Shown in pieces: positions 11,746-46,796 of a stretch of DNA of 46,797 nt. A model generated the notes under the pieces. That model was not told the DNA's origin, did not search any database, and worked only from the letters and a program-made list of their open reading frames with translations. Source of the stretch: Clostridiaceae bacterium (GTDB taxonomy: Bacteria; Bacillota; Clostridia; Saccharofermentanales; DTU023); assembly GCA_012519085.1 (NCBI GenBank), contig JAAYQX010000031.1:1-46797 (forward strand). Reading direction: 5' to 3'. The translations under genes and the position numbers were made by a program. The stretch's first letter is position 1. Every line of letters starts with the position of its first letter.

Positions 11746-14700
11746 ATGTATTGCAGTCATTGTGGCTTTAACAATGAAGAGGGAACGCGCTTTTGCATCA
11801 ATTGCGGACAACTGCTGGAGCACGGGATGCCACGGCAGACGGCACCTAATCAAGCAGATCCGCCATCGCGGCAGGAAGATCAGGCGCCGCCACAGCAGTC
11901 TGACGTGTCGGTCGCATTGCCTGTGCAACAGGAGCCTGCTCAGGCCTCCCCGCCGCAGGTCTCCGAACCGATAATGGCAGAACCGCCCCCAATGCCTGCC
12001 GGGCCGGCTTCAGTCCAGCAGCCCGGACAGCCACCGGCTTGGACTAGCCGGCAGCAGATTGTACCGCCTCAAAGTGCCGGACCTGGTATGATGCCACCGT
12101 CTCAGGCCGGGCAGGCCCACCAGCCACAATTTTCCAGCCAAGCAACTCCACCGCAGCAGGGACAGACACCGTCACAGATTCCCGGTCCGGGAATAGCTCC
12201 ACCCCCACCATTCTCCGGGCAGACGGCCCCTCCACAGTGGGGACAGGTGCCACCACAGACTCCCGGTCCGGGCATGACTCCTCCCCCTCAATTCCCCGGT
12301 CAAGCAGTTCCGGCTCGACCGGCTAAGAAGAAGAAAAAGGGTCTCATTGCGGCTCTATCAATACTAGGTGTTCTGATCCTGTTAATTGCCGGTTTTCTTA
12401 TTTACTCTTTGCCATTAAAACCGACAATCATCCTTGACGGTACGCGACAGACGCTGGATGGCAGTATTGACGATTTGTCCCTATCAGTTAAGGCTAATCA
12501 GTTAATTAAAGAGGTTCGTTATGCCTTAGACCCCGAAGATCCTGAAGATCCTGATGCCTATACGGTACTTGAAGACATTAAGGGCGGTATGTTCAGCAAG
12601 GAGGGCAAGCTACCTAAGCTCAGCCTTGACAAGGCTATTAATGACTCGTCTAAGGAGCGTGGACCTTGGCAGCGCACAGATGCCAATGCTAAGCTTGGTA
12701 ACCACACGCTATACATTACAGTGAAGACCATGTTCGGCACCTCCAAACCCATGCCCTTCAATTTGCTCTATGCCTCAGGTATTTCTGCCCTGCCTGACCG
12801 AACTAAGATCAGAAAGGTCACAGACGGCGAATTATCTACCGATGCCCTAATTAATGAAATACTGGTGTCGCTTGACATGGGCGCTGACCGCTCAATAGCC
12901 GAAAATCTAGCCGCAGAAACAGGAGGCGAGATTGTTGGTGAAATCCCGGCAATCTCCCGCTACCAAATCCGCTACGATGATGCCAGTGAAGATGAGATAG
13001 CTGCTATCTTAGAGGATCTGCAGGCCAGACCGGAGGTTCTGACGGCTCAGTACAATTATGTTTATGATCGATCCGAAATCCAGCTCTATCCGAATGATGC
13101 TTTGCTCGACTCATGGGATATTGACAATCCCGACGGCAATAACTGGGGCCTGGAAGTTATCCGCGCGCCCCTCGTCTGGAAGGATATAGATTCATTTACA
13201 CCGATTTCCGTCGGTATAGCAGACGGCGGCCTTGAATACGATCATGAAGACCTCAATATTGACCGCTCGAATATCTATCTCTTTCCCACATATACGCTGG
13301 AAAGCCTGGATGATATGGAGCTGTATTACACTAAGTCTGACAAGTCGCCGGGTTCTACCTACTACGGCAGGAAGGAGCACGGAACACATGTCACTGGGAT
13401 CATTTCAGCTCAGGGCGATAATGAAATCGGCTGTGCAGGTGTGAATTGGCAGACCAAGCCCTACTTTTTCCATTACTGGCATATGGAAGTGGAAGAAGAC
13501 ACAGGTGAGCTCGATCTCTGGAATGTGACGACCTCCTTCGAGCTTGAGATAACGCTAACTACCCTGGTTGAACAGGGCTGTCGCGTGATCAACTACAGTG
13601 TTGGCGATGCCGAACCCACAGCACCTGGCAGCAAGCACGAGTATATTGAGACACAGGCCTATGGCGATCTCTGTCTGCGTCTTGAAAGCTTAGGCTATGA
13701 TTTCCTTGTCTTCAAGGCAGCCGGCAATGAAACTGAAGATGCCTCCGCTTTTGCTATGAATAGGATCATGACAGGTACCGATGAGGCCCGTCGCCATACG
13801 GTAATTGTCGGGGCTATTGAGAATACGCCGATTGAATATGACGATGACGTAGATGAACGTATCAAATATGCTTACCAACTCAGCGGCTATTCGAATTATG
13901 GCAGCCTGGTTGATGTAGCTGCGCCCGGCACGGATATCTTCAGCACCGTACCCAATAATGGCTATGAAAACAAGCCGGGAACCTCTATGGCCTCACCGAT
14001 GGCTGCCGGTGTTGCTTCCTTGATCTATGGTGCCCATCCTGAATATACTGCTTCCCAAGTCAAGGTTATCCTAAAGGAGGAAACAGATACCTTTACTACG
14101 GACGGCACGAATCTGATCCCCGTTGTCAATGCTGCCCTGGTTTCAGACTATGCCAAGAAGGGCGAACTACCTGAAGTACCGCCGGGTGAAGTGATTCCCG
14201 ATCCCAGTCTTACACCCTATCCCGGACCTCCGACACCCAGCGCACCGAGACCACCGGGGCCGGGTGTCATTGAGCTGCCGGATCACACACCTTTCCGATT
14301 GGAAGACGGCCAGGGTGGTATAGCCGGCTTCATCCGCGATCAAGAGACGGAAAACGCCATCGCTTTATTTAGCATCAGCTTTATTGCTACCGATGGAGAA
14401 GTGGTCACACTCGATTATGCCTATCCCTATCCTGAATCCTCGGATGCCCAGCTGCCGGGTGAGTTTTTCACCCGCGTACCGGTTGAGGTAGGGCAGGAAG
14501 TAGTAATCTCGAACTTTGTTGTTGAGGCGCGAGGTTATAAGTCGTATGAGATACCAAGCGTTACAGTGCTGGGTGGCGAAATAACGGATCTGAATATTTT
14601 CCTGGAAGCTGAGAGTGAAGATACCGCCAGGCCGCCCGGGCATACGCCCTACATCCCGCCTGAAGGCACGGGCAGCATCATCGGCTTTGTCTGTGACGAG

Positions 14701-15930
14701 GTGACGAAAGAGCGCATACCGGACTTTTCTATAGACCTTTTAGTTAAGGATCGGGATACAACTCCTATTACTTTTAATGTTTTTTACCCACCGCCGGAGA
14801 GCTATTATGCCCAACTGCTGGGTGAGTTCATTGTCTGGATAGCCACTGATTCAGAGGATATTGCCGAACAATTTACGATTTCGGCTGATGGCTACGAGTC
14901 AGTTGAAGTTGGTCCTTTGACAATTGTACAAGGTGAGATTGTAGATGTAGGCACTGTCTATCTCAAACCGACAAAGACAGCACCAACGCCGACTCCGGCG
15001 CCAACACCGGACGTAGCGAAACCGACCCCGGAGCCTAAGCCCGTCAAACCCGATCCGGACACTGATGTGATCAATATACCCGGACATACTCCTTTTACTC
15101 CGATAGAGGGGCGGTGCGGCTTTGCCGGCTTTGTCTATGATGCTGTGACCAAGCAGCCCGTATCTTCCTTCCGCCTTGAGAACATAATTTGGCTGATCGG
15201 CAGTCCGGGTGATGTCCAAGTATTTGACTGGCCCTATCCGGATAATCTTTTGGCCAAGATTGAAGGTGAGTTCATTATTTGGGCCAAAATGTCCGCCGAT
15301 AATCCGAAAAATGATACTATGCAAGCCTTTGACATCGTGGCTGACGGTTATGAGACTTACCATGTGGAGGCTTTCCCTGTAGAGGAGCGTGCTGTTACAG
15401 ACCTGGGCGTTATCTACCTGACACCCAAAGGCACCAATCAGCCGCCGTCAGAGATGGGGCAGATCGCTGTCGTCTTGGACTGGGGCGCCAAGCCTGCCGA
15501 TCTGGATTTACATGCTACAGCTCCCCTTACTGACGGTGACCAGAGGTTCCACATCTTTGCCTATGAACCTAACCTCAATTTTGGCAGTGGCGGAGACTAT
15601 CCCGAGGCCTTGATGACGTCACAAAGCGACAGTAGCTACGGCTCAGAAAGCATCACAATTTTTACCCCGCGAGCCGGTGTGCCATACACCTTCTATGTCC
15701 ATGACTTTACCAATACGGCTAAAAAGAGTGATGCTTGGGACCTGGCTAATTCAGGGGCTGAGGTGAGAGTTTACTTGAATATCCTCGACGAACCGCCCAT
15801 TGTCTTTAATGTGCCTAATGAGGAAGGCACGCTCTGGGAGGTCTGTACGATCATAGACGGCGAAGTTAGCTCTACTCACAGTATGAGTTACGAAGGCCGC
15901 CCCTTAAATATCGGCGCCTCTGACCAATAA
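11746..15930 (+). CDS. Large membrane-anchored subtilisin-like serine protease with cytoplasmic zinc ribbon
   Basis: A 1394-residue multidomain protein. Order: a zinc ribbon (C3, C6, C17, C20); a Pro/Gln-rich low-complexity segment (about 28-190); five lysines (194-198) and one membrane helix (about 200-222), placing the ribbon inside and the rest outside; a region of about 250 residues that includes a likely inhibitor-I9-like prodomain (about 360-450); a peptidase S8 domain with catalytic D493 (ADGGLEYDHEDL), H545 (HGTHVTGI), oxyanion N661 and S747 (GTSMASPMAAG); a Pro-rich linker; three related carboxypeptidase-regulatory-like beta modules beginning near 843, 962 and 1110, each led by a (D/G)HTPF/Y motif and joined by Pro/Thr linkers; and a C-terminal module (1238-1394) with VVLDWG...DLDLHA, like DUF2135/YfaP-type domains. 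All triad residues are intact. GGAAGGAG precedes the ATG. It is a single gene ending in a bidirectional terminator. The substrate is unknown. Confidence 0.92.
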   Translation: MYCSHCGFNNEEGTRFCINCGQLLEHGMPRQTAPNQADPPSRQEDQAPPQQSDVSVALPVQQEPAQASPPQVSEPIMAEPPPMPAGPASVQQPGQPPAWTSRQQIVPPQSAGPGMMPPSQAGQAHQPQFSSQATPPQQGQTPSQIPGPGIAPPPPFSGQTAPPQWGQVPPQTPGPGMTPPPQFPGQAVPARPAKKKKKGLIAALSILGVLILLIAGFLIYSLPLKPTIILDGTRQTLDGSIDDLSLSVKANQLIKEVRYALDPEDPEDPDAYTVLEDIKGGMFSKEGKLPKLSLDKAINDSSKERGPWQRTDANAKLGNHTLYITVKTMFGTSKPMPFNLLYASGISALPDRTKIRKVTDGELSTDALINEILVSLDMGADRSIAENLAAETGGEIVGEIPAISRYQIRYDDASEDEIAAILEDLQARPEVLTAQYNYVYDRSEIQLYPNDALLDSWDIDNPDGNNWGLEVIRAPLVWKDIDSFTPISVGIADGGLEYDHEDLNIDRSNIYLFPTYTLESLDDMELYYTKSDKSPGSTYYGRKEHGTHVTGIISAQGDNEIGCAGVNWQTKPYFFHYWHMEVEEDTGELDLWNVTTSFELEITLTTLVEQGCRVINYSVGDAEPTAPGSKHEYIETQAYGDLCLRLESLGYDFLVFKAAGNETEDASAFAMNRIMTGTDEARRHTVIVGAIENTPIEYDDDVDERIKYAYQLSGYSNYGSLVDVAAPGTDIFSTVPNNGYENKPGTSMASPMAAGVASLIYGAHPEYTASQVKVILKEETDTFTTDGTNLIPVVNAALVSDYAKKGELPEVPPGEVIPDPSLTPYPGPPTPSAPRPPGPGVIELPDHTPFRLEDGQGGIAGFIRDQETENAIALFSISFIATDGEVVTLDYAYPYPESSDAQLPGEFFTRVPVEVGQEVVISNFVVEARGYKSYEIPSVTVLGGEITDLNIFLEAESEDTARPPGHTPYIPPEGTGSIIGFVCDEVTKERIPDFSIDLLVKDRDTTPITFNVFYPPPESYYAQLLGEFIVWIATDSEDIAEQFTISADGYESVEVGPLTIVQGEIVDVGTVYLKPTKTAPTPTPAPTPDVAKPTPEPKPVKPDPDTDVINIPGHTPFTPIEGRCGFAGFVYDAVTKQPVSSFRLENIIWLIGSPGDVQVFDWPYPDNLLAKIEGEFIIWAKMSADNPKNDTMQAFDIVADGYETYHVEAFPVEERAVTDLGVIYLTPKGTNQPPSEMGQIAVVLDWGAKPADLDLHATAPLTDGDQRFHIFAYEPNLNFGSGGDYPEALMTSQSDSSYGSESITIFTPRAGVPYTFYVHDFTNTAKKSDAWDLANSGAEVRVYLNILDEPPIVFNVPNEEGTLWEVCTIIDGEVSSTHSMSYEGRPLNIGASDQ

Positions 15931-25716: not shown

Positions 25717-26628
25717 ATGTGGCGTTATTTTGTTAAGCGAATTGCCTTAGCAATTGTTACTGTATTTGCAGTAATGGCAATCACTTTCTTTGCCATGAAT
25801 GCGATCCCGGGCGGACCGTTCGACACGGAAAAAGCATCAGAACCGGCGGTAAAAGCCAAACTGGAAGAAAGATTCAATTTGGATAAGCCTGTCGGTGAAC
25901 AATTCGTACTCTATATAGGGAGATTGTTTCAAGGTGACCTGGGCATCTCAATGCGAAACGGCAGAGAGATCTCCTTAATCATTAAGCAGTCCTTCGCTAT
26001 TTCAGCTAAGCTGGGCGGAATCTCAGCCCTGGTGGCAATTTCACTGGGTTTGACTCTAGGCATTATTGCTGCCCGATACCGCAACAAATGGCCGGATAGA
26101 GTCATAATATTCTTTACAACATTACTGCAATCAGTGCCTAGCTTCGTGTTGGCCACGCTTCTGTTGCTTGTTTTCACTACCCAGCTGAAATTAATCGTCG
26201 CTTGGGATGCCAACAAGGTGAATTATCTGTTGCCGGTTATCTCCTTGGCCATGTATCCGATGGCGTATATTACACGGTTGACTAAATCCAGTATGCTGGA
26301 TGTTATGAATGAGGATTATATCCGTACCGCCAGGGCTAAAGGTGTTCCGCGGCTGAGTGTCACGTACAAACACGGACTGCGCAATGCTTTGCTGCCTGTT
26401 ATTACTTATATCGGTCCCATGATTGCTTACATTTTAGTGGGTAGTATGGTGGTAGAAACAGTATTTACCATTGGCGGCCTGGGGCAGGAGTTCGTCAACA
26501 GTGTTAATAATAGGGACTATTCGATGATTATGGGCACAACAATATTTTTGTCCATCATCATGGTAACGATGAATTTGATCAGTGATTTGGTCTACAAAGT
26601 AGTAGATCCGCGCATTGATTTCAGCTGA
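25717..26628 (+). CDS. oppB: Oligopeptide ABC transporter permease OppB/DppB
   Basis: A 303-residue inner permease of a family 5 (oligopeptide/dipeptide) importer. The N-terminus WRYFVKRIALAIVTVFAVMA and IPGGPFD are typical, and GDLGISMRNGREI is the conserved periphery loop. About six helices are visible. The EAA loop that docks the ATPases is around YIRTARAKGVPRLSV, a canonical match. It forms a heterodimeric channel with the next gene, which begins 11 bases later. First gene of an oppBCDFA operon with its own promoter and a very strong GAGGGGGG ribosome site. Confidence 0.95.
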   Translation: MWRYFVKRIALAIVTVFAVMAITFFAMNAIPGGPFDTEKASEPAVKAKLEERFNLDKPVGEQFVLYIGRLFQGDLGISMRNGREISLIIKQSFAISAKLGGISALVAISLGLTLGIIAARYRNKWPDRVIIFFTTLLQSVPSFVLATLLLLVFTTQLKLIVAWDANKVNYLLPVISLAMYPMAYITRLTKSSMLDVMNEDYIRTARAKGVPRLSVTYKHGLRNALLPVITYIGPMIAYILVGSMVVETVFTIGGLGQEFVNSVNNRDYSMIMGTTIFLSIIMVTMNLISDLVYKVVDPRIDFS

Positions 26629-26639
26629 AGGAGTCAACT

Positions 26640-27719
26640 ATGTCTGAACAAGATAATAATGGTAGGAATGGCAAGCGTCCCTTCAGTTTTCATACTGATC
26701 TGTCGGTCTTTATGCCGGCTACAGAAGAAGAGAAAGCACAACAGGATATTATGCGCCCCTCCAGTACATTCTGGAGAGATGGATTTCGTAACTTCCGCAA
26801 GAATAAACTGGCTTTTGGCAGTCTAATTTTATTAATTATTATTATTTTTACTATCTTGATTGTGCCCATGCTGATTCCCTATGGTTATGATGAGATCATC
26901 CGTATTGACGGCAAAAGGGATAAGACTCTCAGCAATCTGAAACCCATGCAATGGTCGGAACGAGAACTGGAAGCCAAGGCTAACGGCAAGGAAATCTTTC
27001 CTCATATTCTTGGCACTGACAGTTTGGGGCGTGATTATCTTGTCCGTACCCTGTATGGTACCCGCATCTCTCTCTTTATCGGCTTTTTTGCCAGTATTAT
27101 TGTCCTGATCATTGGTCTCTTATATGGGTCGATTTCGGGCTTTGCGGGAGGCAAAATAGATCTGTTGATGATGCGTATAGTAGATATTATCTATTCGCTG
27201 CCGGATATGCTTTTGATTATCTTGCTGTCCGTGGTGTTGCGCGAAGCAATCGGCGATAAGATTCAAGGAACTTTCCTGTCTAAACTAGGTACCGGTATGC
27301 TGAGCATGTTTATTGTCTTCGGCCTCCTCTATTGGGTAGGCATGGCCAGGCTGGTCCGCGGTCAGATCCTGGCAATCAAAGAGAATGACTATGTTCTGGC
27401 AGCGAGATCGGTGGGTGCTAGCAATGCTCGTATCATCCGCAAGCATATTTTGCCCAACTGTATCAGCGTAATTATTATATCTACGGCTTTACAAATTCCC
27501 TCCGCAATTTTTACAGAGAGTTTCCTCAGTTTTCTGGGCCTGGGTGTGGCAATGCCGATGCCGAGCTTAGGCTCACTGGCGAGTGATGCCAGAGGTGCGA
27601 TTCAGAGTTATCCGCACAAGCTGCTTTACCCGGCTCTGATGATCTGTCTGCTGGTTTTAACCCTGAATATTATCGGAGATGGATTGCGAGATGCTTTCGA
27701 CCCGAAGTTGAGGAAATAG
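26640..27719 (+). CDS. oppC: Oligopeptide ABC transporter permease OppC/DppC
   Basis: A 359-residue partner permease. A cytoplasmic N-terminal tail of about 55 residues leads to SSTFWRDGFRNFRKNKLAFGS, a typical OppC entry into the first helix. HILGTDSLGRDYLVRTLYGTR is the family signature after helix 1, and the EAA loop is YVLAARSVGASNARIIRKH. About six helices in all. An extra loop of some 25 residues (GDKIQGTFLSKLGTGM) sits between helices 3 and 4, seen also in other Firmicute OppC proteins. AAGGAG precedes the ATG; oppD follows after two bases. Confidence 0.95.
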   Translation: MSEQDNNGRNGKRPFSFHTDLSVFMPATEEEKAQQDIMRPSSTFWRDGFRNFRKNKLAFGSLILLIIIIFTILIVPMLIPYGYDEIIRIDGKRDKTLSNLKPMQWSERELEAKANGKEIFPHILGTDSLGRDYLVRTLYGTRISLFIGFFASIIVLIIGLLYGSISGFAGGKIDLLMMRIVDIIYSLPDMLLIILLSVVLREAIGDKIQGTFLSKLGTGMLSMFIVFGLLYWVGMARLVRGQILAIKENDYVLAARSVGASNARIIRKHILPNCISVIIISTALQIPSAIFTESFLSFLGLGVAMPMPSLGSLASDARGAIQSYPHKLLYPALMICLLVLTLNIIGDGLRDAFDPKLRK

Positions 27720-27721
27720 AG

Positions 27722-28729
27722 ATGGCAGAAAAAATTCTTCAAGTTAAGGATCTACAGACATCATTTTTTACTGATGCGGGAGAAGTCCGCGCAGTTAATT
27801 CCATCTCTTTTGATTTGGAAGCAGGCAAGGTATTGGGTATTGTCGGTGAATCGGGCAGTGGCAAGAGTGTGACAGCTTATTCGATTTTGCAGATTTTGTC
27901 TTTCCCCGGCAAAGTCATTGGCGGTCAGATTCTTTTCCACGGCAAGGATCTATTGACTTGCTCGGAACGGGAGATGCAAGAAATCCGAGGCGATAAAATC
28001 AGTATTATCTTTCAGGATCCGATGACTTCGCTTAACCCGGTGTATTCGGTCGGCAACCAAATCGTTGAAGCAATCAGACTACATACCGACAGACGGGGGA
28101 AAGAAGCGAGAGACCGCGCCATAGAATTGCTGGATCTGGTCGGGATCAATGATCCGGAGCGCCGGATCAGACAGTATCCGCACGAACTGTCCGGCGGCAT
28201 GCGCCAGCGTGTTATGATAGCCATGGCTCTGGCCTGTGAGCCGGATATCCTGATCGCGGATGAGCCCACCACGGCTCTGGATGTCACGATCCAGGCACAG
28301 ATTTTGGAACTGATCAATGAACTGCAGCGCAAGTTGAATATGGCAGTAATTATGATTACCCACGATCTAGGGATCATCGCCGATATTTGTGACGACATTA
28401 TTGTTATGTACGCAGGTTCTGTTTGTGAACGCGGCTCAACCGATGATATTTTCTACGATTCCAGACACGAATATACCAAAGGTTTATTAGCATCCATTCC
28501 TAAAAGGGAAAAGTCGGAGGAATTGCTGACACCTATTGCAGGCACTCCGCTTGATCTACTGAATATGCCCGCAGGTTGTCCCTTTGCGCCTCGCTGTGAC
28601 GCCTGTATGAAAATCTGTCTGAGCGAACGGCCGCCGGAACGTCTGATAGGCGGCCAGCATTATGCATCATGCTGGATTAATGATCTCCATGAACTGCAGA
28701 AACAGCAGCAAGAATTGGAGGCAGAATAA
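27722..28729 (+). CDS. oppD: Oligopeptide ABC transporter ATPase OppD
   Basis: A 335-residue cytoplasmic ATPase that drives peptide import. Walker A is GESGSGKSV, the Q loop is in IIFQDPMTSLNPVYSVG, the signature is LSGGMRQR, Walker B is ILIADEPTTALD and the switch histidine is in MITHDLG. The C-terminal extension has the cysteine-rich peptide-transporter motif (CPFAPRCDACMKIC then SCW), which in related OppD/DppD proteins can bind an iron-sulfur cluster. All catalytic residues are intact. It begins two bases after oppC and its TAA is directly followed by the oppF ATG. Confidence 0.95.
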   Translation: MAEKILQVKDLQTSFFTDAGEVRAVNSISFDLEAGKVLGIVGESGSGKSVTAYSILQILSFPGKVIGGQILFHGKDLLTCSEREMQEIRGDKISIIFQDPMTSLNPVYSVGNQIVEAIRLHTDRRGKEARDRAIELLDLVGINDPERRIRQYPHELSGGMRQRVMIAMALACEPDILIADEPTTALDVTIQAQILELINELQRKLNMAVIMITHDLGIIADICDDIIVMYAGSVCERGSTDDIFYDSRHEYTKGLLASIPKREKSEELLTPIAGTPLDLLNMPAGCPFAPRCDACMKICLSERPPERLIGGQHYASCWINDLHELQKQQQELEAE

Positions 28730-29740
28730 ATGAACGAGATGAATAATATGACAACTGCTACTGCAGCAACGGATCAGACCAAGACAGATAATATTTTAGA
28801 AGTTAAAGGTTTAAAACAGTATTTCAAGGTCAAAACCGGCTTCTTCTCATCCTTACCCCTGAAAGCGGTTGATGATGTCAGCTTTGAAATCAAGCGCGGC
28901 GAAACTCTTGGCCTAGTGGGGGAATCCGGCTGTGGCAAGACTACGGTCGGCCGATCCTTAATGCACCTATATACACCGACCGCCGGTGAGGTTTATTTTG
29001 ACGGACAAAAGATAGACAAGAGCAATATCACAGAGCTGCGTCGCAATATGCAAATGGTCTTTCAAGACCCCTATTCTTCTCTGAATCCGCGGATGACGGT
29101 GGAAGATATAGTACGCGAGCCCCTTGATGTGCACAAATTATATGGTTCAAAGAAAGAACGCAGTGAGCGGGTGGCTGAGATGCTTTCCTTGGTAGGAATC
29201 AGTAGCGAACAGGCCAGCCGATATGCTCACGAATTCTCCGGCGGTCAAAGACAGAGAATTGGCATTGCCCGGGCGCTGGCGATTGATCCTCGTTTCATTG
29301 TCTGCGACGAATCGGTCTCCGCTCTTGACGTTTCAATTCAGGCCCAAATCCTGAATATGTTTAAAGAATTACAGGCCAAGTTTCATTTGTCCTATCTGTT
29401 TATTGCCCATGATATTCTGGTTGTAACCTATATGAGCGATCGGATCGCTGTAATGTATCTGGGAAAATTGATTGAAATGGCGGATACAATGGAGATTAAC
29501 AATAATCCCGTTCATCCTTATACTCAAGCACTGTTTTCTGCTGTTCCCATACCGGATCCACGTACCGCACGGGCCAGTAAGCGTATAATGCTGGAGGGTG
29601 ATGTGCCAAGCCCGTTGCGGGTTCCCAGCGGCTGTGCTTTCCGCACTCGTTGTCCGTATGTGACGGCACAGTGTTCTGAGGCTACTCCGCCCTTAACTGA
29701 TCGGGGAAACGGGCATCTGGTTGCCTGTTGGAATAAATAG
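28730..29740 (+). CDS. oppF: Oligopeptide ABC transporter ATPase OppF
   Basis: A 336-residue second ATPase of the importer. Walker A is GESGCGKTT, the Q loop is in [18 protein letters not shown], the signature is [15 protein letters not shown], Walker B is [12 protein letters not shown] and the switch histidine is in FIAHD. In Walker B the catalytic glutamate is kept in DES. Like OppD it has a cysteine-containing C-terminal motif ([15 protein letters not shown] and ACW). The N-terminal 20 residues are Thr/Ala-rich and not conserved in the family. The ATG directly abuts the oppD stop, with GGAGG inside the end of oppD. Confidence 0.95.
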
Positions 29741-29857: not shown

Positions 29858-31690
29858 ATGAAAAAAATCATTGCATTGTTGCTGGCAGTCATAATGGTGT
29901 TTTCACTGGCTGCCTGTAGCAAAAAGGATCCTGCCTCAACCAAAGGAGATGATGCTGAAGTAGCAACCAAGGATGGGGAAGAACCGGGTGAAACCGAAGA
30001 ACAAGGTGAGCCAGCTGACACAGAGGATGCTGAACCGGATCAGGAAGAACCTGCAGCTGAGGGTGTAGTAGCATCTTTTGACTGGACTGAATTTGACACG
30101 CTGGTCAACAATATCCGCACCAATGTAGATCTGAAAGAACGTGAAGCTCAGATGCACCAGGCTGAGGATATGCTGATGGAGACCGGAGCAATTTGCCCAC
30201 TCTATTACTATAACGATGTTTACATGGTAAAAGAAGGTGTCAAAGGCTTTTACAGTAACCTGTCCGGTTTCAAGTACTTCCAGTTTGCAGAACTCGGCGA
30301 TAATTCCGTCATGCGTCTGAATCTGGCCAGCGAACCTGACAAGCTGGATCCGGCCCTCAACACTTCCATGGACGGCGCAGTTCTTTGTATCAACTCTTTT
30401 TCCGGCCTGATGATCCATAATCCCGACGGGAGTATGTCTCCCGACTTGGCCGAGAAAGTTGAAATGTCGGAAGACGGACTGACCTATACTTTCACCATGA
30501 GAGATAATCTCAAGTGGTCAGACGGTAAGCCCCTGGATGCCAAAGATGTCGAATATTCCTGGAAGCGTGCAGCCAGCACCGAAACTGCAGCTGACTATAG
30601 CTATATGTTCAGCGTTATCAAAGGCTATCCTGATGATCTGGCTGTCGCCGCTTCTGAGGACGGCAAGACCTTTACGGTTGAATTGGAAGCACCCTGCCCC
30701 TATTTCTTTGACCTGTGTGCTTTCCCGACTTTCTACCCCGTACCCAAGGAAGAAGTCGAGAGTGCCGAAGGCTATATGAAAGACGGAAAACTGGTTAACC
30801 CCGGAGCCTGGGCCAATGAGGCAGGCTTTACCAGTAACGGAGCGTACAAGCTGGTTGAGTGGAAGCATAAGGAAAGCATGGTTTATGAGAAGAATCCTAA
30901 CTACCATCGCGCTGATGAGGTTAAGATCCAGCGTCTGGAATTCATGCTCTCCGATGATGAGGCAGTAATCTACAATGCTTATCGTGACGGTAGCCTGGAC
31001 TTTATCGATAGCGTACCGACCGATGAAGTCAAGAACCTGCTGGATAGCAAAGATCCCGAATTCCACATTGTGGATCAGCTGGGCACCTATTTCGTGATCT
31101 TTAATGTCAAATCCAACATGTTTGCCGGTAAGACGGTAGAGCAGGCAAGGGATATGCGCCATGCTCTGAGCTATATGATTGACCGCGAGTACATCGTAGA
31201 CACCGTAGCACAGACAGGCCAGAAGATTGCCACCAGCTTTATCCCGGCGGGAATGTTTGACGGCAGAGGAAACGAGCCCTTCAAACAAAGTGATGATGAC
31301 TTCCAGTATCCTTTCCCGGAGATTGCAGGTTACTACCCCGAAGAGCCTGATCTGGAAAAGGCGAAAGAACTATTCATTCAGGCCGGATTTGAATTCGACG
31401 GTGACAAACTGTCAGCCAGTACTCCACTGCATATCAAGTACCTTACCAATAAGAGCGACGCGCATGCTGCAATCGCCGAGTGCATACAGAGTGACTTTGC
31501 TCAATTTGGCATTACGATGGAAATTTCTCTGCAAGACTGGGATACCACCCTGGCAGAGCGCAAGGCCGGCAATTATGACGTAGCACGTCACGGCTGGATT
31601 GCTGACTTTAACGATCCTATCAATATGCTGGAAATGTGGATGACGGATAGCGGAAACAATGATGCTCAGTTCGGCAGATTCGATAATTAA
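29858..31690 (+). CDS. oppA: Oligopeptide-binding lipoprotein, circularly permuted SBP_bac_5 fold
   Basis: The 610-residue extracellular substrate-binding protein of the importer. Signal peptide 1-19 with lipidated C20, then an acidic Glu-rich linker (about 25-70). Residues 74-146 then read like the normal C-terminal end of family 5 binding proteins: FDTLVNNI, a helix ending AEDMLMETGA, CPLYYYNDVYMV and a YSNLSGFKYFQFAEL strand. Only after about six residues does the usual N-terminus follow (MRLNLASEPDKLDPAL, then DLAEKVEMSEDGLTYTFTMR and LKWSDGKPL). The protein stops at SGNNDAQFGRFDN, exactly where canonical members continue into the (P)xFDxLI helix, and FDxxEFD at 74-80 resumes that sequence. 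So all parts of the fold are present once, in permuted order. No frameshift or duplication is seen. GGAGG lies ten bases before the ATG. Confidence 0.9.
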   Translation: MKKIIALLLAVIMVFSLAACSKKDPASTKGDDAEVATKDGEEPGETEEQGEPADTEDAEPDQEEPAAEGVVASFDWTEFDTLVNNIRTNVDLKEREAQMHQAEDMLMETGAICPLYYYNDVYMVKEGVKGFYSNLSGFKYFQFAELGDNSVMRLNLASEPDKLDPALNTSMDGAVLCINSFSGLMIHNPDGSMSPDLAEKVEMSEDGLTYTFTMRDNLKWSDGKPLDAKDVEYSWKRAASTETAADYSYMFSVIKGYPDDLAVAASEDGKTFTVELEAPCPYFFDLCAFPTFYPVPKEEVESAEGYMKDGKLVNPGAWANEAGFTSNGAYKLVEWKHKESMVYEKNPNYHRADEVKIQRLEFMLSDDEAVIYNAYRDGSLDFIDSVPTDEVKNLLDSKDPEFHIVDQLGTYFVIFNVKSNMFAGKTVEQARDMRHALSYMIDREYIVDTVAQTGQKIATSFIPAGMFDGRGNEPFKQSDDDFQYPFPEIAGYYPEEPDLEKAKELFIQAGFEFDGDKLSASTPLHIKYLTNKSDAHAAIAECIQSDFAQFGITMEISLQDWDTTLAERKAGNYDVARHGWIADFNDPINMLEMWMTDSGNNDAQFGRFDN

Positions 31691-31734
31691 TCTGCTTAGG
31701 ATTTGAGACTGAAGCTTTAATGCGTTAATGTGAA

Positions 31735-31769
31735 CGGGGCCGGTTATCTGATTGCAGTGACCGGTCCCG
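31735..31769 (+). terminator. Terminator hairpin after oppA
   Basis: A 10-bp stem (31735-31744 with 31760-31769; arms CGGGGCCGGT and ACCGGTCCCG, one G-U pair), with a 15-base loop and a short CTTT after it. It lies 45 bases after the oppA stop and ends the opp operon before murA paralogue 2. Confidence 0.6.
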
Positions 31770-31770
31770 C

Positions 31771-31799
31771 TTTACAATCAAGACAGATTCAGTTAGTAT
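31771..31799 (+). promoter_or_regulatory. Candidate promoter of murA paralogue 2
   Basis: TTTACA (31771-31776), a 17-base spacer and TAGTAT (31794-31799), directly after the opp terminator and about 33 bases before the GTG start. The -10 is weak, so this is a modest prediction. Confidence 0.4.
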
Positions 31800-44824: not shown

Positions 44825-44960
44825 GAGAGTCACCTTGGGGGTAGATTTTTGATCCGCTGGTTGAACGATACAATCAATGTCGTCAGCTCCTTAATAAAAA
44901 CAAAATCTTTATCCAGTTTCCTCATGATACAATAAAATTATTCAATAGAGGAATTGGTTG

Positions 44961-46796
44961 ATGTCATTCATGTCTATACGAAAAACTTATGCCCGCTTCA
45001 AATGGCTGAGCCCACTGGCTCTGGTCTTGATTATATGTCTATTGTCAGGTGTTGTAGCCTGCACATCGGATGATGGCCCTGCCGGGAATCCGGCTTCTTC
45101 TACCGCACCGGATAGCAGTCTGCAACAGACTGCAGAGACGCCGGACGACCCGGCGGCGCCTTCGACAAAAATGCAAGAGGAAACTGAATCTACCCAGGCA
45201 GATGCTTTCCATGAGATCGGCTTTGTGCCTGACCCGGATACGACGATTACCATCCAATTGCTGGAAGATGAGGTTAATCTGAATCCTTTGCAGGAGGGGA
45301 ATGGTTTTCCGGTTGACAGTCTGAGCGGCTGTGACCTGGTATATGAGACTTTGCTCAAATGGGATCCGGAAGAATTGACCTATAAGCCGGGGCTGGCAGA
45401 ATTGCTGGGGATTTATGCAGACGGGATTAAGTTGAAAATTAGAGAGGATGCTGTCTGGCATGATGGTCGGCCGGTAACCCCGGAACAAATCGAACTGTCC
45501 TTGTACTGGATGTGTAAGTTTACGGAAGGTTGTCGGGAGGCAGAGGGTCTGATCACAAAAGTTGAGACAGAAACTGATGGAGAGCTAGCTACTGACCGCA
45601 TTTTCCTGACACTGGCTGAAAACGGTAAATACTATCAGGCATTGGCCTTGGATCTGCTTTGCCGGGCGCCGATTATGCCGGCTAATATATGGTGTGAGGG
45701 AAGAGATCCGCTGACGATCACGGAAGAAGAACTGCAAATACAGGCTGACAAACAGCCACTGGGCACGGGACCCTGGCAAGTCAAATTGAATGATTCTTTC
45801 CAATTGGTTTTGGAGAGATGCGTGGCAGTGGACAATAAGCCACAGTATTTGATGTTACGCAAGTATAAGGATCGGCTGAGCAAGGAACGAGCCTTTGCCA
45901 ATCAGGAGATAGATATTCTGGGTGGCACATTGCCGGATGATGGGAACAGTTCCGATTATTTTACCGGAAAACCGTTGCTGTCAGGAATCGTTGTTAAACG
46001 GGATCACTATCTGTTCAAGAATATTTATTACCGTAATCTGTTGCAACTGGCTGTCGATACGTCCAAAACAGGTCACATCCTGGATAGCAAAGCTGCGACT
46101 ACAATTTTCTGGCATTATTTTGGCGGAGCGACCCTTGTTAGCCGCTTGCGGCCTGATCTGTCCAAGCCGGTCTTTGCTGAGACCTATTTGGCGAACAAGT
46201 GGGAGATAGCTACCCGGCTGGGAGGAACTTGGGACAGCGACGGCGTGCTGCACCTTGAACAGCAGCCGCTTGCAACACTGGATCTGATTTTACCTGCTGA
46301 TCCACAGGTGGAAGCTGCCTGTAGAGCATTTGCCCAGTCTGCACTGCGTCAAGGCTTAAGGCTGGAACTGGTCATTCTGGACCAGGAGACATACGGACAA
46401 AGGATCGACAGCCATGATTATGATCTGTGTTATATACAGACAACGGAAAGGCTGGAAACGCCTTACAGTCTGGCACAGGATTTTCTTTACCATCTGGATC
46501 GCGATGATTTCGAGGAACTGGTCACATCCGGTCTTTCGCAACAGGTCAGAACGCTGGCTTTGGCCCTAGCTTCTGCAGGTACAGCGGACGATTTTGTCGC
46601 CGCCGCCAAGGACTGCTATCAATACTCGTTACAGCAGATGCAATTTTTTCCTCTGGGTTGCCGGACCATCAATAATGGTTACTTCAACTCAAAGTACAGA
46701 CAGAATATATCTGATTACTGGGCCACACATCTGGACAAGCGTGATCTCACCGGCAATAGCGCGTCTGAGATTCTCGATAGCATCACAGCTGATTAA
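44961..46796 (+). CDS. Orphan extracellular solute-binding lipoprotein, family 5
   Basis: A 611-residue secreted lipoprotein. A long signal peptide with a lipobox VVAC (C34), then a Ser/Thr/Glu-rich linker to about residue 85, then a family 5-like body in the normal order: TITIQLLEDEVNLNPLQ, a CDLVYETLLKWDPEELTYKPGLAE block, IKLKIREDAVWHDGRPVTPEQ, GTGPWQVKL, and YRNLLQLAVDTSKTG near the domain crossover. It is strongly diverged from OppA at 29858: only these blocks are clear, and the C-terminal end lacks the usual PLYYY motif, with QFFPLGCRTINNGYF in its place. The stop is at 46794-46796, one base from the window end. No transporter genes adjoin it here. Start: ATG at 44961 with GAGG nine bases upstream. 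Confidence 0.8.
   Translation: MSFMSIRKTYARFKWLSPLALVLIICLLSGVVACTSDDGPAGNPASSTAPDSSLQQTAETPDDPAAPSTKMQEETESTQADAFHEIGFVPDPDTTITIQLLEDEVNLNPLQEGNGFPVDSLSGCDLVYETLLKWDPEELTYKPGLAELLGIYADGIKLKIREDAVWHDGRPVTPEQIELSLYWMCKFTEGCREAEGLITKVETETDGELATDRIFLTLAENGKYYQALALDLLCRAPIMPANIWCEGRDPLTITEEELQIQADKQPLGTGPWQVKLNDSFQLVLERCVAVDNKPQYLMLRKYKDRLSKERAFANQEIDILGGTLPDDGNSSDYFTGKPLLSGIVVKRDHYLFKNIYYRNLLQLAVDTSKTGHILDSKAATTIFWHYFGGATLVSRLRPDLSKPVFAETYLANKWEIATRLGGTWDSDGVLHLEQQPLATLDLILPADPQVEAACRAFAQSALRQGLRLELVILDQETYGQRIDSHDYDLCYIQTTERLETPYSLAQDFLYHLDRDDFEELVTSGLSQQVRTLALALASAGTADDFVAAAKDCYQYSLQQMQFFPLGCRTINNGYFNSKYRQNISDYWATHLDKRDLTGNSASEILDSITAD

Follow-up and report, generated by a model that had tools for sequence, protein, structure and literature searches.

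Circular permutation is known from natural proteins such as concanavalin A and the saposins and swaposins, the swaposins having arisen by duplication and loss, and these cases mostly involve single cut points, whereas the family 5 binding proteins described here have been cut at three points, in six or more events. Altered connectivity of the binding-protein fold is also on record, as a domain dislocation between periplasmic binding protein classes (Fukami-Kobayashi 1999, as cited in PMC10601554) and as engineered permuted halves of the ribose-binding protein (PMC9815098); however, the former is, as far as the citing account goes, an ancient fold-class difference and the latter a laboratory construct, while the case in family 5 is a natural and recurrent permutation of the whole chain. 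No description of natural circular permutation in family 5 was found in the open-access literature (subscription journals and preprints were outside the scope), where permutation in binding proteins was represented only by engineered biosensors, fold-evolution papers and unrelated matches; the initial annotation had likewise known of no published description. Circular permutation and family 5 are both already known; what is new is that permutation has recurred, and at three loops.

The closest well-described proteins are OppA and DppE of Bacillus subtilis and OppA of Salmonella and Escherichia coli (family 5, cluster C; 8are, 8ay0, 1b05), to which the core of the protein studied here is 28–34% identical. 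It shares with them the predicted fold, the ligand-site motif and OppBCDF-type partner genes, whereas its counterpart of their last ~70 residues comes first and its chain ends in domain III instead of domain I. By the published boundaries of OppA, domain I consists of residues 1–44, 189–269 and 487–517, domain II of 45–188 and domain III of 270–486 (PMC6305025); lobe 2 is domain III alone in related pneumococcal proteins (PMC11192437), and in the E. coli Dpp complex both lobes touch the scoop motif of the permease (PMC12136057). Closer in sequence (~48–55% identity) are canonical sisters from Lachnospiraceae (L089 of [Clostridium] polysaccharolyticum, L092–L100 and L120), which have a similar loop around the position of the cut but the ordinary order in one uninterrupted chain.

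The gene occupies positions 29858–31690 on the plus strand of the window, i.e. the whole stretch of 46,797 nucleotides that was analysed, and encodes a permuted OppA-type peptide-binding lipoprotein (SBP_bac_5) of 610 residues, as assigned from Pfam, phmmer, homologues and AlphaFold. Upstream on the same strand lie genes for the permeases OppB (25717–26628, Pfam BPD_transp_1) and OppC (26640–27719, BPD_transp_1 and OppC_N) and for the ATPases OppD (27722–28729) and OppF (28730–29740, both ABC_tran and oligo_HPY), so the two permeases and two oligopeptide-type ATPases that define an OppABCDF cluster are all present. The complete oppBCDF operon of the initial annotation therefore holds, as does its single intact reading frame with a lipobox: ATG start, upstream GGAGG, LAAC and TAA stop could all be read in the sequence. 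From the translation, a lipoprotein signal peptide with the lipobox (LAAC, Cys20; 29858–29926) is followed by an acidic, low-complexity and fast-evolving tether (about residues 24–72; 29927–30073). The moved segment comes next (residues ~73–145; 30074–30292), containing two helices, a YYY strand and the final strands and corresponding to the C-terminal ~70 residues of canonical OppA/DppE by phmmer, homologues and AlphaFold. According to phmmer and homologues, a short bridge (..LGDNS..; 30293–30307) then connects the former C-terminus with the former N-terminus, and the core (residues 147–607; 30296–31678; Pfam and phmmer) runs from there to an SGNND.QFGR loop. Downstream of the gene, a strong hairpin of −31 kcal/mol at 31729–31785 (+) is a possible operon terminator, and no remnant of the moved segment was seen at this hairpin. 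The window also contains a second, divergent SBP_bac_5 protein (44958–46796, +; 612 aa, PF00496 at 48 bits), which reaches the window end, and a 1394-residue protein that, oddly, combines a subtilase domain with a zinc ribbon at its N-terminus (11746–15930, +).

When the whole protein was compared with PDB chains by phmmer, two stretches matched a single chain in swapped order. On DppE (8ay0), residues 147–601 corresponded to 19–444 and residues 77–143 to 451–517; on OppA (8are), residues 150–603 corresponded to 20–450 and residues 76–143 to 454–521; and the same swapped pair of matches was obtained on 1b05 and 3o9p, so that solved OppA, DppE and MppA chains all show it. Residues 73–149 alone gave their best match to the DppE C-terminus (E = 7e-9), and 14 of the 15 chains listed (to E 10) were family 5 chains matched C-terminally. 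No PDB chain spanning the permuted junction was present among the 60 matches listed, and no second copy of the moved segment was found in the 1.8 kb downstream of the gene. Since swapped matches to one relative, with each part present once, meet the criterion for circular permutation, the interpretation of the window protein as a naturally circularly permuted family 5 binding protein is supported, and the rotated order makes it a variant of the SBP_bac_5/OppA-type proteins and not an ordinary member. These results bear out the rotation proposed in the initial annotation: residues ~75–143 represent the canonical C-terminal end and residues 147–607 the chain from the canonical N-terminus to the point at which that end would follow, each part occurring once. 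The Pfam alignment of residues 74–146 that had been suggested as a check turned out to be an empty test, because the SBP_bac_5 model (PF00496) describes only the middle of the family and the moved segment lies outside it; residues 193–601 matched profile positions 2–367/368 with 270.5 bits against a curated cut-off of 32.4.

The absence of a Pfam model for the segment would also be compatible with an unrelated helical domain that merely resembles the end of OppA, in a protein whose true C-terminus has been lost. This reading is extremely unlikely, in view of the E value of the match to the DppE C-terminus, the corresponding matches to other family 5 chains and an AlphaFold model that is confident with the segment included. 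That prediction, another check suggested at the outset, was computed from an alignment of 47 permuted sequences without any canonical one, and gave an OppA-like model with pLDDT 88.7 and pTM 0.87, and within the moved segment the helices and the YYY strand scored ~89–92. A structural aligner superposed model residues 79–537 on OppA 18–453 (Z 29.9, 2.4 Å, 416 residues) and left out the first ~76, whereas the model of the canonical sister L092 fitted OppA from end to end (Z 39.6, 488 residues), which is what is expected for a permuted protein under a sequential aligner. The OppA-like cluster C fold is thus a confident prediction only, and the position of the moved segment in it was not directly measured.

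A scan of GTDB genomes and the window's relatives, restricted to the phyla Bacillota and Spirochaetota, revealed 71 loci with the window's order (hereafter cut 1 or type A), a few of them being one genome reached twice; 68 distinct proteins were compared. The order is therefore not restricted to the window; a search for homologues, to see how widespread it is, had been proposed with the initial annotation. Hosts were Lachnospiraceae, Christensenellaceae, Oscillospiraceae, unnamed Clostridia and spirochaetes (Treponema, Sphaerochaeta), including the cultured strains Blautia caecimuris DSM 29492, Blautia sp. Marseille-P3201T and Treponema bryantii XBD1002, and some of the loci lie on long contigs. 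Across the homologues the bridge between the two matches measured 0–7 residues. The stop codon came directly after ..QFG[RK] in 58 of the 68 distinct proteins, so the FD that had been noted at both cut ends is not a general feature. In an even sample of Bacillota, the junction from segment to N-terminus was matched in 11 of 398 genomes (the window's own included), compared with 3 of 247 Spirochaetota genomes and 7 of 78 genomes from one clostridial order. A group of genomes in the Spirochaetota sample (G848, G884, G898, G909 and similar) carried at least 12 family 5 binding proteins each, 12 being the maximum number of candidates scored in any one genome. The window sits in a 62-contig metagenome bin, and a mis-join could in principle have produced its rotated order. 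We consider that there is practically no chance of this, as identical order and stop position recur in ~70 loci, isolates included, and other cut points occur in two genomes (3.1 and 3.3 Mb) that consist of one contig each; mis-assembly was ruled out by the homologues and the isolates.

Regarding function, the core retains the ligand-site motif R577..W580..D583, aligned with OppA R413, W416 and D419, which we take to be peptide-binding residues, and this motif did not vary across 47 permuted homologues. Comparison with the nearest relative, L038, gave pN 0.12 and pS 0.76 for the window gene, a difference that, at the level of sequence, amounts to strong purifying selection; pN was 0.30 for the signal peptide and tether versus 0.09 for the core. 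Of 72 type-A loci, 43 showed the order OppB-C-D-F-SBP; in many of the remainder the upstream region was only partly covered. Given the invariant ligand motif, the intact partner genes and the position at the operon end, the system is most simply understood as a normal peptide importer whose binding protein has been rewired, and the most likely function is ordinary peptide capture for OppBCDF, inferred without binding or transport data. By a simple pattern, the lipobox was absent in ~21 of the 68 permuted type-A proteins (for instance L067, L059, L077, L101, L044, L042 and L045), although most hosts of the permuted proteins are Gram-positive; such proteins may be free, tethered by an uncleaved signal peptide, or mis-scored. 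Some SBPs have sensing roles, and the lack of a lipobox in some permuted proteins could be taken to mean that they have become peptide sensors or adhesins, no longer serving an importer, with the permutation marking the new role. The tight placement at the oppBCDF end in most loci, the invariant ligand site and the selection on the window gene speak against this, and we regard such a change of role as improbable and retain the importer function.

The order found in the window is not the only one: other loci from the search for relatives carry the segment in the interior of the protein, and they represent two further permutations. In OppA numbering, cut 1 falls between 441 and 444, a second between ~352 and 358 (cut 2) and a third between ~281 and 287 (cut 3), and all three map into domain III (270–486). 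Cut 2 was found in L026–L028, from genomes of the same order as the window's genome, in L157, L158 and L160, and in L182, from a single-contig 3.3 Mb genome. Cut 3 was found in L147, which lies within an oppBCDF operon in a single-contig 3.1 Mb genome, in L153, L208, L209 and L228, and in five paralogues of one genome. The latter (L226 twice, L227, L231 and L232), two of which stand in tandem (L226:5610-9147), are an amplified permuted subfamily. The NCBIfam OppA profile matched L147 with residues 74–286 at profile positions 314–521, an independent confirmation of rotation, and the Pfam match was divided into two stretches in L147, L028 and L182. Since the search profile spans the junction and ~130 residues beyond, cuts within domain II could have escaped, so the apparent confinement of the cuts to domain III needs caution.

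For the number of origins, a careful tree of 70 proteins was built from sequences rearranged to canonical order. In the bootstrap trees, cut 3 required three or more changes and cut 2 two or more; AU tests rejected a single clade for cut 3 (p = 5e-57), a single clade for cut 2 (p = 0.001) and one origin for all permuted proteins (p = 3e-82), whereas cut 1 as a single clade was not rejected (p = 0.21). Taking cut 1 as compatible with one origin, these trees require at least six independent changes of order at three cut loops in one family. In addition, L153 (cut 3) shares a long loop with the canonical clade in which the tree places it, an independent sign of recurrence. A cut-2 group and a cut-3 group form sister groups in the tree, so some of the six events may have rearranged a gene that had been permuted before. 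The data for cut 1 fit either one origin or one origin with a return to normal order. In all 200 of 200 bootstrap trees, canonical Lachnospiraceae sequences (8–11 of them, L089, L092–L100 and L120) lay inside the cut-1 clade, as would be expected if cut 1 arose once and a second permutation restored the order in this lineage; the common stop after ..QFG[RK] also opposes several origins. However, as a one-clade cut 1 was not rejected, the canonical sequences may instead be an unpermuted sister. A return to the ordinary order is accordingly possible but not shown, and we lean somewhat against it. We would extend no more than a tentative hearing to the wider proposal that family 5 is unusually permutable, with six or more independent permutations confined to three loops of lobe 2, a tether repeatedly relocated and one lineage restored to canonical order.

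The permuted genes would have originated by tandem duplication of oppA, followed by fusion and loss of the outer parts. This duplication-fusion-trimming route is an inference that we consider likely; it is helped by the tandem family 5 genes present in relatives and by the way the loop at the cut appears divided. In the canonical sister L092 this loop reads QFGK..SEAAP.W..YD, and in many permuted proteins its halves seem to be found apart, QFGR at the C-terminal end and SEAAP.W in the N-terminal linker. None of the loci examined contained an intermediate stage, with a copy of the segment at each end of one gene. In the resulting protein, the last ~70 residues of OppA are placed first, behind the signal peptide and tether, and a bridge of 0–7 residues ties them to the old N-terminus, so that the fold can close as usual, while the chain is now opened within a loop of domain III (lobe 2). 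The initial annotation had placed both natural termini in lobe I, which agrees with the published boundaries, domain I holding both, and makes a short bridge plausible. It had also put the relocated lipid anchor next to the second lobe crossover, with a possible effect on docking to OppBC. Relocation by the new termini stands, while the place has to be refined: with the cut between OppA 441 and 444 in domain III, the start of the chain, together with the lipid anchor where present, is inferred to shift from lobe 1 to lobe 2. This does not have to affect docking, because both lobes contact the scoop motif in E. coli Dpp, and tether relocation does not apply to the type-A proteins without a lipobox. 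Peptide would be captured by the usual Venus-flytrap movement and handed to OppBCDF, with the lipid tether leaving from lobe 2. We hold with high confidence that the window encodes a working, naturally circularly permuted OppA-type lipoprotein and that its family has undergone permutation repeatedly; the order, its conservation, its recurrence and its linkage to the operon have been demonstrated, the fold is predicted, and function, tether geometry and duplication route are inferred.

What would surprise specialists is that permutation recurred at three loops. Natural circular permutants are usually isolated curiosities, whereas here several independent events at three sites occur in a very common, well-studied family with close unpermuted sisters. 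An annotation blind spot also becomes apparent: because the Pfam model is limited to the family's central part, a permutation of the window's type looks normal in Pfam. The natural cut points are useful places for the insertion of reporters in peptide biosensors. For the family itself, the permuted proteins enable direct tests of which loops tolerate new ends, of how permutation affects stability and closing kinetics, and of whether the site of the anchor affects docking.
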